NCBI RefSeq assembly: GCF_000504205.1
Contig: NZ_AZAJ01000001.1
Span: 434,001-498,000 of the forward strand
Length of the DNA: 64,000 nucleotides
Direction: 5' to 3'
Source: Methanolobus tindarius DSM 2278
GTDB taxonomy: Archaea; Halobacteriota; Methanosarcinia; Methanosarcinales; Methanosarcinaceae
Part shown: positions 19,127 to 27,596 of the stretch, in pieces
Layout: each line of letters opens with the position of its first letter
How positions within the stretch are numbered: the first letter of the stretch is position 1
The notes under the pieces: generated by a model
The model's input: the letters and a program-made list of their open reading frames with translations, nothing else
The model's database searches: none
Told to the model about the DNA's origin: nothing
Made by a program: the position numbers and the translations under genes

Positions 19127-20989
19127 TTACCCCCTGATAGCTTTTGCACCGGTAACAACTTCTTCATCAAGACCCTCCACTATCAAAGTGGGTAATTTTG
19201 CTATCTCAGCTTCACTGAGTGTTGCTACAGAGTAACTGAGGACTTTAGACGCACCTGGTGAAACACTTAGCTTCCATATATAATCAAAATCACTACCCAT
19301 GCTTATCACCTTGGGCTGCGGCACTGCATTTTCGATTTCAAAAGGCACCATATCATGTACATTGAAATTTTGTTTTTTACTGGTGTAATTCTTAGCCCTG
19401 ATAGAGATCTTTGCACCACCATTACCATCAGGTTCTACTATCCTGTCTACCAGAAGATTGCCCATGACCTTTGCAACCACAGGATTTATGTCAGGAACAT
19501 CGCGTTCAAGAGTTTCAGCAAGTTTGCTGGCCATTTTTGGCAGCACCTTTGTGATAATAACCTCTTTTTCACGCCTCTTTTTGAGATCATTACGTTTGTT
19601 AAGATACCTGTTCATCTTTCTGGCTACTTCTTTAATGGCAAGCTCTATCTCATCCCTTATTTCAGGAATTTCTGCCACAGCATCCTTGGATTCGGAAGTG
19701 AAAGGAACATTGGTTGATGCTACGTGAACTAAAATAACCACAGGACCTGTTGGAAGTCCTCCGCCTGGCTGGCTCAGACCATACTGCTTCCACTTAACAG
19801 ACTCAATCGCATGAGTGATAACACATCCACCTTGCTGATACAGGAGCGGAACCCTGTTGGCAAAACGCATGATATCCACACGGTCGTCTTTTTGGAGTTC
19901 ACCACCAAAGGCGATACCAACTTCAACAATAAAAGGATTACCTGAGAATACAGATGCGGTTCTGGTGGTTGTGGCTATGAAATCAACACTGAACTCCTTC
20001 TCAAGTCCTTTGTAGATAAGTTCCTCACCAATAGGAGAAAGACAATCTGTAGGTGGAGCCATTATCTTTACCCTGGAGAATGCATCCAGCAATTTACGGG
20101 ACTGGTCCCTTGTCATCTCATGCGGATCAAGTTCCGGGTCAAGTCCGGAGGCCTTGCATATTTCTTCTGCGGCAAGATGACCAATCTTTGAGAATGAGTA
20201 ACGCAGGAAGGGGGAAAGCTTCTGTCTTTCAGTATACCTCAGCATTTTCATCAGAGTACCAAGCTCAATACCATGCGGATGAGGCAGTATCTCTTTTGCA
20301 GGAACCGGAAGTTTGTCCGTGGCCCTTTCAAAAGTTTCCTGGTTTCCATCCGGTTCAATCAGGGTAATTCTTGCATGAGGATTCACGATTGCAGTGGCTT
20401 TCAGATACTCATAGATGGACTGGCGTCTTCCCTTTACATAGGAAGCTTCCATTTCCATTTCAATGCGAGTACCATGTGGCCTGTCCCAGTCTACCACATC
20501 ATCCCTGATAATCTCAGGATCGTTGGTACTGGTGTTTATCATTAACTCGTAATAGTGTGCAGGTTTTCCATGACCTATTTTAGACGTAATCTTTGTATGG
20601 TGACCTGATGTCAGTTGTGAATAAAGCACCGATGCCGATATACCTATACCCTGCTGTCCACGACTTTGTTTTAGAGCGTGGAACCTTGAGCCGTAGAGGA
20701 GTTTTGCAAAGACCTTTGGAATCTGCTCCTTGATGATACCAGGCCCGTTGTCTTCCACGATGATTACCACGTTGTCTTTGCCCGAGCGTTCTATATGAAG
20801 GAAAATGTCAGGAAGTATTTCTGATTCCTCACATGCATCAAGGGAGTTATCCACTGCTTCCTTGACCGTTGTTATTAGACTGCGCGGGGCTGAATCAAAA
20901 CCCAGAATTTGCCTGTTCTTTTCAAAGAACTCTGCAACGCTTATTGATTTCTGGTTTTTGGCAAGTTCTTCTGCAATTGGATTATCCAT
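19127..20989 (-). CDS. top6B: DNA topoisomerase VI subunit B
   Basis: 620 residues, ATPase subunit of topoisomerase VI. The GHKL ATP-binding fold shows the N-box [22 protein letters not shown] and [13 protein letters not shown]. The transducer follows with [31 protein letters not shown]-terminal extension of about 100 residues ([19 protein letters not shown]) is an immunoglobulin-like domain as in Methanosarcina Top6B. It is the first gene of the top6B-top6A pair. A minus-strand TATA-like TTTTTATATATTC lies near 21052-21064. Confidence 0.97.
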
Positions 20990-21164: not shown

Positions 21165-21398
21165 CTATTTCAGCTCTGCACCCACAATTGTCTGGGTTGC
21201 GGTTACTGATTCTGTTTCACGTATAAGATCGACTATGCTGTTAAGATTGCCAAGGTCATCAACCTCAATAATCACAACAAAGTCATATTCTCCAAAAACG
21301 TGATAGATGTCCTTTATACCTTCTATTCTGTTGAGTTCGTTAAAAGCTGTCCTTTCACTACCTGGCAGCACATTAACCATAGTTACGCCTATTACCAT
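21165..21398 (-). CDS. Stand-alone Lrp/AsnC ligand-binding (RAM) domain protein
   Basis: About 78 residues from the ATG at 21398. An upstream in-frame codon at 21446 would add 16 unconvincing residues. The sequence MVIGVTMVNVLPGSERTAFN...VFGEYDFVVIIEVDDLGNLN...VTATQTIVG is the dimeric alpha/beta-barrel effector domain of Lrp/AsnC regulators without the DNA-binding helix-turn-helix. Such proteins assemble into ring-like oligomers, bind amino acids, and may modulate full-length Lrp proteins such as the one at 55708-56202. Confidence 0.85.
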   Translation of the reverse strand: MVIGVTMVNVLPGSERTAFNELNRIEGIKDIYHVFGEYDFVVIIEVDDLGNLNSIVDLIRETESVTATQTIVGAELK

Positions 21399-21524
21399 TT
21401 TATCACTTAGACAGAAGTAGGATACAAAGTATTTAGAAGTTTTCAATAATTCATTTGAGCCTCAGAAAAGCAGAAAATATCTAATAAATATAATCGACAT
21501 CAAGAGCCATGTTTCAAAAATCAC

Positions 21525-21541
21525 CTCATCATAATGATGAG
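21525..21541. promoter_or_regulatory. Palindrome upstream of the small-RNA candidate promoter
   Basis: CTCATCAT-A-ATGATGAG is a perfect 17-base dyad, ending about 10 bases before the TATA-like TTTATATA. This position suits an operator or activator site. Confidence 0.45.
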
Positions 21542-21554
21542 TATGAGAATAATC

Positions 21555-21562
21555 TTTATATA
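21555..21562 (+). promoter_or_regulatory. TATA box upstream of structured RNA candidate
   Basis: TTTATATA within AATAATCTTTATATACTAAG is a good archaeal TATA box. A start about 22-26 bases downstream would fall at about 21583-21588, exactly where the inverted-repeat structure begins. Confidence 0.5.
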
Positions 21563-21586
21563 CTAAGAATATCATACTAGGAATTG

Positions 21587-21650
21587 ATGAGCGGGTTATC
21601 CTCTTTTTGACAATAACCCCCACTCCCCAACCCGCTCATACTCCACTCCA
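21587..21650 (+). ncRNA. Candidate small regulatory RNA with competing stems
   Basis: An 11-bp perfect outer stem (ATGAGCGGGTT at 21587-21597 with AACCCGCTCAT at 21629-21639) competes with a 7-bp stem (GGGTTAT at 21593-21599 with ATAACCC at 21613-21619). The two share bases 21593-21597. The intervening strand is unusually C-rich (21617-21633), able to pair with G-rich Shine-Dalgarno-like sequences. A TATA box sits 25-30 bases upstream and CTTTTCT follows at about 21651-21657, where the transcript may end. No sensible open frame exists. Transcription is not shown; this is a prediction. Confidence 0.45.
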
Positions 21651-22206
21651 CTTTTCTGATACATAATATTAAAAATCAATCAGCTTGGGCTTTGTTTTTA
21701 AATATCCTCCAACCATTAGGGAAAAATCAATAATTATGACCGGATTTGTATGAACAAGCATACATATGAATACTGCTGATTTATAAAAATAACAGAGTAC
21801 TTTTTTCTTTAATGTTGCACAATTCATACAGAATAATACAACAATCCAAACAAAAGTAAATGATGATATTTCATCCATGCAGCAAATTTCATTTGAAAAC
21901 AGACATTACAAATCAATCGTTTATCTTATGGGGAATAATACATCTAGAGCTTTAGAATATGAAGCCTGTAAAATACAAATCAATAAACGACACCATCCAA
22001 CTTTACATAAAATAGTATTCAATTATAAATACAGAAATGATAAGATATAATTTAAAGTTGATTATTACATACGAATAATATAAAACATACATTAGAGAAT
22101 ATACCATAAAATATATTCAATTGATAGCAAATCCGCAGCCACGTGATAATCAACAGAAATATCAAAGATACAATCAGTCAATCAATCACGATTAAACCCA
22201 AAAAAC
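21651..22206. other. AT-rich intergenic region, no gene seen
   Basis: About 550 bases downstream of rfcL and of the RNA candidate. Open frames here are short and have no family resemblance. The only pattern noted is a TGTATGA-N4-GCATACA dyad at 21747-21764. Confidence 0.5.
21747..21764. promoter_or_regulatory. TGTATGA...GCATACA dyad (copy 1)
   Basis: TGTATGA-ACAA-GCATACA, one of four similar dyads in non-coding DNA of this window (others at 25699-25717, 33032-33051, 51157-51174). This copy is not next to a gene start. Confidence 0.35.
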
Positions 22207-23715
22207 TCAGAAATCAAATAATGTTTTTTGTGGTTTTGCTGCGACTTCCTTTTTGGCCGGTGCTGTTACTTCATCCTTCTTAGAGGAGTCATTCCCAAAA
22301 GCAGAATCTAATGAAGTATTATTAGAAGCTGGCAACTTATCAAAACTAAGTTGAGAAGGATCTTTCTTTGGTGCAGATTTTTGAACAAAAAATTCAGGTT
22401 CATCTGTGGGAATGAAAGCCTGACGCTTATACTGTGCATCATCATACAATGCCTGAAGCTTTTTTGTGACCTTCTTTGCCCCCAGCAGATGGAGCATTTC
22501 ATCCATATCCAGCCCAAGAACAGCCACAACATCAGCAGCATATTCATCTTCCAGAATAAGACGTGAATACATACCTGCCACCTCAAGACGTGAATAACGC
22601 ATTGATTCATTGCAATGAGAACCAATTTTAACAGCAATATTGTTCCTCATATTGCGCCTGGAACGCATTTGTCCCATCTTACGCCACAAAGATGGTGGCT
22701 GATATTTTACAAAACCTCCACGCACCCTGGTTTTAGAAACCACAGTCCCACCAGTCATAAGCATGCCTGCATAACGCCACATGCGATAGTTCTGGCGCCT
22801 GCGTACGCGTCCGAGGAAACGATCCGAGCGGGAAAGATAGGAATACACGGCAATAATATCAGGAGTGAGAGATTCCTCACCTTTGCCGGTGTATTGGTAT
22901 GGAAGATTTTCATCAACCCAGTGAATAAGATCCTCAGGAGTTTCATCGAGGTTATATGTTGCCTCCAGTGCGGAGGAAACATCCTTGCCTTTGAATATCC
23001 TTCCAACCACTTTGAATATGGACTCTTTGTTATCACGTTCAGACGTGGAAATATCCTCAATATTGATCTCGGTACGCCCCATTGCAATGGCCTGGAGATC
23101 ATTGACAGCACTTCTGAAATCACCATCCGCAGATTCAGCTATTTTCTCAATAACACCCACACCGCACATGATACCTTCCTGCGATGCAATTTTCTTTAAT
23201 GCCGGAACCATAGAACGGGATTGTACAGATCCAAATTTAAGTTCAAGACATAAAGAACGTACAGTAGATGAAAGACCGTAAACATCATTGGCTATCAGGA
23301 TAATAGGCTGACTGGCTTTCTTTATAACATCAACTATTGCACGTGCCCCGCCGCGGTCACTGTTACCGTGCAGATTATCAGCTTCATCAAGAATTATGAG
23401 TCTCTTATCAGACGTACCTGTAAGTGTTTTCATCGTAGATGCAGAACCTGCAACCTTTTCAATAACACCTGCAGTTCTCTGGTCACTGGCATTAAGCTCA
23501 ATGACTTCCCAGTTCATATCCCTGGCAAGAGCATGTGCAGACGAGGTTTTACCAATACCGGCCTGACCGTGCAATATTACTGCTCTTTTTTCAGGAGTGC
23601 CATATTCCCACTGCTCTCCCCAGTTCCTGAGATCATCTATCACTTTCTTGTGGCCAACTACATCGCCCAGTGAGACTGGCCTGTACTTCTCTGCCCATTC
23701 CATCTGCACAGTCAT
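22207..23715 (-). CDS. rfcL: Replication factor C large subunit (clamp loader)
   Basis: About 502 residues from the ATG at 23715; a TTG at 23727 is less likely. The AAA+ core shows [20 protein letters not shown], Walker [17 protein letters not shown], and Walker [14 protein letters not shown]. The C-terminal region is lysine-rich and ends PQKTLFDF, a PCNA-interacting (PIP) motif placed at the very C-terminus. With RfcS it loads the PCNA sliding clamp on DNA. It is divergent from mtxX, with about 87 bases between the two starts. Confidence 0.96.
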
Positions 23716-23802
23716 GTTATTACCCAATATTCAGGAAAAGTAATTAATGTTTGCACCACTTTGTTGTTCTGATTGATATTATTGATGGTAGAGGTATCAT
23801 CC

Positions 23803-25760: not shown

Positions 25761-27596
25761 ATGAAAAGACTTACTATCAGCATGTCCGATGAGCTTTTTG
25801 ACAAACTGGACGTAATTGAAAACAAAAGCCTGTTCATCAGAAAGCTTATAGAAAGAGAACTTGACGCAGTGGATAATTTCTCTTCTGAAGAAGTTATTCC
25901 CTGGAGCGAAGGATTCAGTATTCTCAAAAAAGATGTTAATACAATATTCAGCCGACTTGAACAAATGGAAAACAAACTTGCAGGAATAAGCCCTGCACAA
26001 GAGAATGAACCTTTGATTCAGGAATCTTTAAACCCTCTTTTACAGGAAACTTCTGAACAAATACATGAACCACAGGATAATCTTGCACAGAATATTATCA
26101 GTCATGAAATTCCGGAACCTGTTGAACAAGTACTCGCTGAGGACATCGGCACTCAGAACATAAATGAAAATATTGGTGAAAATCATCCGGATATACCTGC
26201 CCCGGTTATGAATGGTACCGATATCAACATGGAAGATATGCGTGAAAATACCGGCAATGAACTTGAGATGGAGAGTTTCAAAACTGAAGATATGGGAATG
26301 ATTGAAACAGAAATCCCTGAACCAGCAGTAGCAACAAATATCCAGGAAACTGCCAACAATGCACCATCGATTGAAACCACTGAGCAGAACTTCAATCCGA
26401 TGGAAAATATCAGCGTAGAGGAACAGATAACTCCGAAAGAAAGTACAGTTTTAGTTGAAAATACGGAAGAAACATTTAACCCATCTATACCTGAAATGAA
26501 GAGGGAAAGTTCAGTAGATGCTGAAATTCCACACGAGCATAAACTCTCAGAACTGGTTGCAGAAAAAATACATAAGGAAACAGAAGTTGAAAACACTTCT
26601 TTAAAAGAAGCTGAAAAAAATCCTTTATTCATGCCCCCTGAAGGAGAAATGCAACAAACAGAGTTCCAGATGCCAGAATTGAAGCCACCGGAGCAAGAAA
26701 TGACACAACAGGAATTCCAGATGCCTGAATTGAAACCACTGGAGCAAGAAATGACACAACAGGAATTCCAGATGCCTGAATTGAAACCACCGGAGCAAGA
26801 AATAGCACAATCAGAGTTCCAGATGCCAGAATTGAAGCTGCCGGAGCAAGAAACGACACAACAGGAATTCCAGATGCCAGAATTGAAACCGCCGGAGCAA
26901 GAAGCAGAACAACCGGAGTTCCAGATGCCAGAATTGAAACCGCCGGGGCAAGAAGCAGAACAACCGGAGTTCCAGATGCCAGAGTTTAAGCCACCGGAAC
27001 AAGAAGCAGAACAACCGGAGTTCCAGATGCCAGAATTGAAACCGCCGGGGCAAGAGGCAGAACAACAGGAATTCCAGATGCCAGAATTGAAACCACCGGA
27101 GCAAGAAGCAGAACAACCGGAGTTCCAGATGCCAGAGTTTAAGCCACCGGAACAGGAGCTGGGACAAACGGCATTTGCGATGCCGGAGCTAGAAACATCA
27201 GGATCACCAGCAATGCCAGATACAAATGAAGCTGAGTTGGTTATGCCGGAAATGAAAGCACCTGAAATGCCGCCTATTGCCGGAGAATCGATGCCACCAT
27301 TTAATACAGGAACAGAAGCTGCACCTGAAATACAAACTGAAACAGCTCAGATGCAAGCATCAAAAGTTTCACCTGATGTAAATCAGAGTGCAGGGACTAA
27401 GCCGGACAAACTGGAAACCAATATTCTAATGTATATGCCACGCGGAGCTAAAGTTAAAAAAGAGATCATAAAGAGTCTGGTATCACGCCAGTTCAGTCAG
27501 GAAGACATTGACAGGAAGATACAGGAACTGGTTGCAAGAGAAATACTCATACTTAAGCAGGAAAATGGTGTTGAACAGCTTCACAGACTAAAGTAA
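25761..27596 (+). CDS. Ribbon-helix-helix protein with ten 17-residue repeats and a C-terminal wHTH-like domain
   Basis: 611 residues; no named family recognised. Residues 1-38 (MKRLTISMSDELFDKLDVIE...FIRKLIERELDAV) match a CopG/Arc-type ribbon-helix-helix DNA-binding fold. A short coiled coil follows (about 52-75), then a very acidic linker. Ten near-perfect repeats of the type EFQMPELKPPEQEAEQP occupy about residues 301-470. A compact C-terminal domain (about 550-611, MPRGAKVKKEIIKSLVSRQFSQEDIDRKIQELVAREIL) looks like a winged helix. GGGAG lies about 8 bases before the ATG. The layout suggests a DNA-tethered scaffold with an extended repeat spacer; function is unknown. Confidence 0.75.
   Translation: MKRLTISMSDELFDKLDVIENKSLFIRKLIERELDAVDNFSSEEVIPWSEGFSILKKDVNTIFSRLEQMENKLAGISPAQENEPLIQESLNPLLQETSEQIHEPQDNLAQNIISHEIPEPVEQVLAEDIGTQNINENIGENHPDIPAPVMNGTDINMEDMRENTGNELEMESFKTEDMGMIETEIPEPAVATNIQETANNAPSIETTEQNFNPMENISVEEQITPKESTVLVENTEETFNPSIPEMKRESSVDAEIPHEHKLSELVAEKIHKETEVENTSLKEAEKNPLFMPPEGEMQQTEFQMPELKPPEQEMTQQEFQMPELKPLEQEMTQQEFQMPELKPPEQEIAQSEFQMPELKLPEQETTQQEFQMPELKPPEQEAEQPEFQMPELKPPGQEAEQPEFQMPEFKPPEQEAEQPEFQMPELKPPGQEAEQQEFQMPELKPPEQEAEQPEFQMPEFKPPEQELGQTAFAMPELETSGSPAMPDTNEAELVMPEMKAPEMPPIAGESMPPFNTGTEAAPEIQTETAQMQASKVSPDVNQSAGTKPDKLETNILMYMPRGAKVKKEIIKSLVSRQFSQEDIDRKIQELVAREILILKQENGVEQLHRLK
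26661..27170 (+). repeat. Ten tandem 51-bp coding repeats
   Basis: Ten in-frame 51-bp units run without gaps inside the gene at 25761-27596. Each encodes EFQMPE(L/F)K(P/L)(P/L)(E/G)QE plus four variable residues. Several units are nearly identical at the DNA level (for example around 26922-27020 and 27024-27120), which points to recent duplication and possible copy-number variation. An eleventh, degenerate unit (AFAMPELETSG) follows. Confidence 0.95.

Follow-up and report, generated by a model that had tools for sequence, protein, structure and literature searches.

The window analysed here, a 64,000-nt stretch of the Methanolobus tindarius DSM 2278 genome, carries what appears to be a stand-alone gene for a small non-coding RNA (21585–21656) that would be transcribed under the control of an upstream palindrome (Table 1). 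Comparison of its relatives shows a covarying clamp stem that closes a loop predicted to be single-stranded, in which a U-tract precedes one to six C-tracts (in the canonical form AACCCCCACUCCCC), together with a C-rich tail and a promoter of its own. We put the probability that this is a trans-acting small RNA of a clamp-and-loop family at roughly 85%, and it is probably a core regulatory RNA of the archaeal class in which it is found.

Table 1. Coordinates of the RNA gene, its parts and its neighbours (positions in the window unless stated otherwise)
Feature	Position	Strand	Remark
Window	434001–498000 of the genome		genome of 3,151,883 bp
Topoisomerase VI subunit B	19127–20989	minus	upstream of RNA
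AsnC-domain gene	21165–21446	minus	upstream of RNA
Palindromic upstream element CTCATCATAATGATGAG	21525–21541	.	probable operator
TATA box TTTATATA	21555–21562	+	34 nt 5′ of GAGCGGG
Predicted small RNA transcript	21585–21656	+	about 70 nt, both ends inferred
Clamp stem, 5′ arm	21587–21597	+	covarying pairs
Alternative 7-bp stem	21593–21599/21613–21619	+	exists here; no family covariation
Loop U-tract	21604–21608	+	possible Sm-like protein site, inferred
Loop C-motif AACCCCCACUCCCC	21615–21628	+	nearly invariant, also in matches found without using the motif
Clamp stem, 3′ arm	21629–21639	+	covarying pairs
Single-stranded tail ACUCCACUCCAC	21640–21651	+	C-rich and G-poor
Convergent clamp-loader gene, AAA and RFC-type lid domains	22207–23727	minus	downstream of RNA
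Sibling-subfamily loci, genome G026, contig C1	69759–69813, 351373–351427, 561345–561413, 2838637–2838690, 2877684–2877738	−, +, +, −, +	L323, L328, L331, L334, L335

The 17-base palindrome, the TATA box, the 11-bp and 7-bp stems and the C-rich strands at 21615–21628 and 21640–21651, which the first-pass annotation had described from the window alone, were all recovered at the positions given. For statistics on the family plan, TATA box, U-tract and tail we used 106 distinct stem-bearing members, and in about 75 of them the TATA box lies 32–36 nt before GAGCGGG with a sharp mode at 33–34; therefore transcription would start on the first bases of the stem, which agrees with the start proposed earlier for the structure. 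The 3′-end of the predicted RNA was placed by a T-run at 21652–21655. Upstream, the palindrome was matched at 12–14 of 14 positions in all 27 Methanolobus-type genomes, 60–66 nt 5′ of the stem, and shuffled controls reached at most 11/14 (n = 1080); for the window copy it is a probable operator, judged from this constancy. Near-copies of it in the same genome (G000:C1) lie at 2676163–2676179 (L005, L036), 239152 (L037), 395819 (L038) and 1316511 (L039), which suggests a small shared regulon. The near-copy at 2676163 has a GAGTATGA extension and stands just 5′ of a gene whose product, small and putatively exported, ends in IPEFPTIALPVAAIIGLAFFMQRRKEE, which we take to be a PEF-CTERM-like tail.

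The gene order topoisomerase VI subunit B, AsnC-domain gene, RNA and clamp loader is shared throughout the genus and by at least one other. Two repeated sequences were seen in passing in this genome: a 611-aa protein encoded at 25761–27596 (+) of the window has about a dozen MPELKPPEQEAEQPEFQ-type tandem repeats in its middle, and near-identical stretches (TGTGGAGTGGGGTCCAAACTAAACTTGCAGAGTCGGCTTG...) at 1401970 and 1408988 of G000:C1 (L220, L221), 7 kb apart, form a repeated element. That a structured RNA directly follows a promoter could also mean that it serves the gene behind it in cis, as a leader or riboswitch, but the closest gene downstream lies on the opposite strand in the window and in 51 of 65 members, and on the plus strand near the RNA there is no gene that would need 21585–21656 as its leader; we consider the chance of such a leader next to nil. 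The earlier statement that neighbouring genes do not explain the element hence stands, and the combination of an own promoter with no downstream gene in the same direction is that expected of an RNA acting in trans.

A plain DNA similarity search detected the segment in each of the 26 other genomes of the genus and in fragments elsewhere. Within these 26 genomes a 57-base core is nearly invariant and its flanks drift; in the alignment TGAGCGGGTTATCCTCTTTTTGACAATAACCCCCACTCCCCAACCCGCTCATACTCCACT is hardly altered, and the surroundings drift except for the TATA box and the palindrome. The two arms form a perfect 11-bp stem; the 64-kb window contains few inverted repeats of this kind (11 perfect bp, loop no longer than 60 nt), with 8 seeds in 5 distinct places. 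Moreover, the window RNA folds far better than its dinucleotide shuffles (z = −4.6, 0 of 200 shuffles). For the 13-pair clamp stem in 40 representatives, 84.6% of cells were paired, compared with 75.1% in shuffles and 30–44% in controls in which the stem was slid, and both sides had changed in 68 cells, compared with 24 ± 6 after shuffling. The covariation score of 0.306 (0.143 for shuffles) was reached by 0 of 500 shuffles, and is to be read with the caveat that kinship alone can beat shuffles and that the stems were partly picked by complementarity. Given how large the difference is, and how the slid controls behave, an artefact is very unlikely. Compensated versions of the stem include GAGCGGG/CCCGCUC, GGGCAGG/CCUGCCC and GCGCGGG/CCCGCGC, and GAACGAGCGAG/CUCGCUCGUUC in Methanosarcina. 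Homologues, which had been suggested as a check for uncompensated stem loss, thus show the 11-bp stem compensated instead. A broader alignment mixing all subfamilies (A2) was dropped because the stems were badly aligned.

The same test gave a different result for the 7-bp stem, with 61.4% pairing against 62.6% in shuffles and a covariation of 0.023 against 0.026. The first-pass annotation had called the two stems mutually exclusive and had raised a two-state RNA switch in which they alternate. The inner part of the long stem does clash with the 7-bp stem, but the latter can coexist with the outer 6 bp, and this combined fold of the window RNA (−15.2 kcal/mol) is less stable than the ground state (−16.4 kcal/mol) by only about 1.2 kcal/mol; the 7-bp stem would also be the first to form during transcription. 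An alternative stem that pairs at shuffle level and shows no covariation in the family nevertheless makes the switch very improbable, and that part of the earlier reading was abandoned.

The earlier statement that the structure holds no open frame was nearly right, as the only exception is a 7-codon leaderless frame, MSGLSSF (21587–21610), which begins at the first base of the stem. Its ATG on the first bases of the predicted RNA would suit a leaderless micro-ORF with a functional product, and a leaderless small ORF has lately been reported for sRNA154 of M. mazei. Much of the genus retains the frame, but the wider family does not conserve it as such: about a fifth of the members have no start codon at this triplet (for instance ACG in 10 of 106), frame length is erratic, from 3 to 77 codons, and it is the stem that compensates. 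We hold a functional peptide to be extremely improbable. A DNA-level element, either a former of G-quadruplexes or i-motifs or a protein-binding inverted repeat, would account for the opposite strand carrying several G-runs, of which Methanosarcina copies have as many as six. It would not account for a one-sided TATA box at fixed spacing or for a U-tract fixed in position and strand, and G-runs number only three in the window copy, so that we give this explanation an equally slim chance.

The 106 members share a constant plan, in which a TATA box is followed by a stem at the expected start, a U-tract, C-tracts, the 3′ arm and a C-rich, G-poor tail. Stem length in the family is 8–16 bp. Between 5′ arm and C-motif, 105 of the 106 members have a U-tract of four U or more, compared with 28 expected by shuffling, and the first 12 nt past the core stem contain 3–6% G and 23–27% C. 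Loops have one or two C-tracts, and up to six in some Methanosarcina copies. The pattern scan itself selects for the C-motif, so that every member it gave carries one; the matches found by DNA similarity and the orthologues anchored by synteny are free of this bias. Among the named genomes, the pattern scan placed members in Methanolobus, Methanomethylovorans, Methanohalophilus, Methanococcoides, Methanosalsum, Methanosarcina, Methanoperedens and ANME-2; pattern matches in high-GC bacteria were rejected as chance, being mostly without a proper stem.

Genomes were then searched with a covariance model (R1), which the window copy matches at 67.8 bits (E = 1.2e-13 in its own genome); this copy is among the seeds, so that paralogues and relatives carry the test. 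The model found the family in 129 of 130 genomes of the order (88/88 good ones) and in 194 of 200 genomes of the class (150/151 good ones); a second large family of the class is among the latter, with lower scores. The RNA is missing from six class genomes, which belong to one family (f7) and two genera (g9, g10) with 1.5–1.8 Mb genomes. A search of 393 genomes of the phylum doubled as a specificity control: all 94 genomes with matches were within the class, and outside the class none of about 300 genomes had one. Judged by these matches, the family is nearly universal in the class of Methanosarcina, Methanolobus, Methanoperedens and relatives. Plasmids gave no match to the RNA and viral contigs none to the loop motif, and a plasmid or viral origin was rejected on these grounds. 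The idea of an independent small RNA linked to its own promoter, put forward for the window copy, is borne out by covariation, TATA spacing, gene orientation, conserved synteny and presence throughout the class.

Copy number ranges from 1 to 20 and is highest in a genus (g16) that contains Methanoperedens contigs. In the M. tindarius genome itself, a second copy with two C-motifs lies at G000:C1:2748000–2748063 (minus), flanked by an MnhG-type antiporter gene on one side and a Sua5-type gene on the other, and a third, diverged copy (2836223–2836314, minus) has a GCGCGGGTGG stem and three C-tracts. Synteny is conserved for two paralogues. A pair of members about 0.7–1.5 kb apart was seen in Methanosarcina (L308 and L310, in the M. 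mazei-like G125 and the M. acetivorans-sized G197), one member of the pair having up to six evenly spaced C-tracts in its loop. Two neighbouring copies with unlike stems are present at L174, listed together with L028 (G003), and tandem copies also occur in further genomes (L059, L131, L139, L141, L181). Tandem copies suggest ongoing local duplication. Genome G026 has eight family loci, five of which form a sibling subfamily with its own covarying stem (AGGUGUGUG/CACACACCU) and the loop CUUUUUCUACCACCAACCCCCACUCCCAA, and most of these copies share a GCGACAAnnnTATATAnTGTAACGCCGTTAAC-type upstream box. The other three loci of G026 lie near 399.5, 2722.0 and 2751.0 kb.

We consider that the stem acts as a clamp that displays the loop, because the loop is constant and the stem need only pair. 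The RNA would then act in trans and show its loop to a partner common to the whole class. This partner may be a protein, or an RNP, that recognises the U-tract and the C-tracts, for which the RNA would be a scaffold or titrating sponge; we hold this reading at a little under even odds. The first-pass annotation had instead proposed that C-rich single strands mask G-rich ribosome-binding sites. As an antisense RNA in trans, the molecule would pair through loop and tail with such sites in specific mRNAs and block their translation; both segments are single-stranded and C-rich, M. mazei sRNAs reported to mask ribosome-binding sites, sRNA41 and sRNA154 among them, provide a prior, and the tails of two loci (L044 and L045) contain CACCTCCT, a perfect anti-Shine-Dalgarno sequence. 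In its general form, this proposal found no support against permuted motifs. The motif makes at least seven consecutive pairs in 5 of 700 initiation regions, compared with 2–12 for permutations, although true Shine-Dalgarno words are 6–9-fold enriched in the same 700 regions. Genome-wide, the complement of the motif shows no enrichment (89, compared with 73 for the reversed control). Exact 12-mer complements of the motif occur only in family loci, one being the third copy, and the near-perfect matches that we inspected were other family loci, intragenic, or outside recognisable leaders. The ACDS operon was rejected as an sRNA41-type target, since its sites are GGAGG-type and, judged by eye, not complementary to the loop motif CCACUCCCC. 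A few specific targets, or action via the tail, are possible, and we regard antisense action as a plausible but lesser candidate. The protein or RNP partner seems to us somewhat better than antisense pairing with G-rich mRNA sites, because the loop is invariant throughout the class, C-tracts number anywhere from 1 to 6, and permuted motifs pair just as well with initiation regions. More tentatively, the family may represent a class-defining archaeal RNP or protein-titrating RNA, in which 1–20 copies would bind a conserved RNA-binding protein through U-tract and 1–6 C-tracts, and separate promoters (with the palindrome, a GCGAC-type box or others) would feed different environmental signals to one effector.

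In the window and in 12 loci of other subfamilies, Rfam release 15 gave only tRNAs above the gathering threshold and no credible weak match. A text search of the literature, which did not extend to the key M. mazei papers, found no paper with the motif and Methanosarcina, and the CMfinder survey of 2010 does not mention methanogens. Because we found no Rfam match and, in the literature so covered, no description as one family, we call it a new family within a known kind of C-rich-loop small RNAs. Single members have probably been seen already as anonymous sRNAs in the M. mazei and M. psychrophilus transcriptomes, and a family definition would allow such scattered transcriptome matches to be grouped together. 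A function is known for few archaeal small RNAs, and descriptions of the best-studied ones come mainly from single genera. The present family spans a whole class, from Methanosarcina-type methanogens to the methane-oxidising Methanoperedens lineage, in several copies and with an almost unchanging loop, and in the genetically tractable Methanosarcina (four loci each in the M. acetivorans-like and M. mazei-like genomes) a deeply conserved archaeal riboregulator could be tested directly.

The closest comparison is with M. mazei sRNA41, sRNA154 and sRNA162, three characterised sRNAs that are reported to mask ribosome-binding sites. They are likewise intergenic and trans-acting, come from the same archaeal class and have single-stranded segments proposed to bind mRNAs, whereas the clamp-and-loop family has a single clamp and one C-motif loop, is multi-copy and extends throughout the class. 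sRNA154 is described with two stem-loops, and sRNA162, in the accounts consulted, as a 191-nt RNA with three stem-loops and a 39-nt linker, reported from Methanosarcina only; the window RNA has one stem and about 70 nt and is class-wide, and is not sRNA162. sRNA41, compared here by its description, could be a member of the family. In Methanolobus psychrophilus R15, nine sRNAs are reported that are conserved, induced by cold and preceded by a ‘cold box’, and cold induction of some sRNAs was confirmed by Northern blots (PMC5378194). Several highly conserved sRNAs with a common upstream box in one Methanolobus genome resemble the situation in G026, with eight loci and five with a box, and the sibling subfamily of G026 may be these cold-box sRNAs, although to equate them is a guess.

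Two bacterial systems show related features. The Listeria LhrC family, Staphylococcus RsaE and the alphaproteobacterial CCUCCUCCC ‘cuckoo’ RNAs are multi-copy and pair with Shine-Dalgarno sites through C-rich single strands. Like them, the clamp-and-loop RNAs are multi-copy small RNAs with conserved C-rich single strands, but their motif pairs with initiation regions no better than permuted motifs do. CsrB and RsmZ are protein-titrating RNAs with a GGA motif and many hairpins. The present RNAs are C-rich instead of GGA-bearing and have one loop instead of many hairpins, and their partner protein is a proposal; what they have in common with CsrB and RsmZ is variable copies of one short motif in single strands, seen here as repeated loop motifs, and several sibling RNAs per genome.
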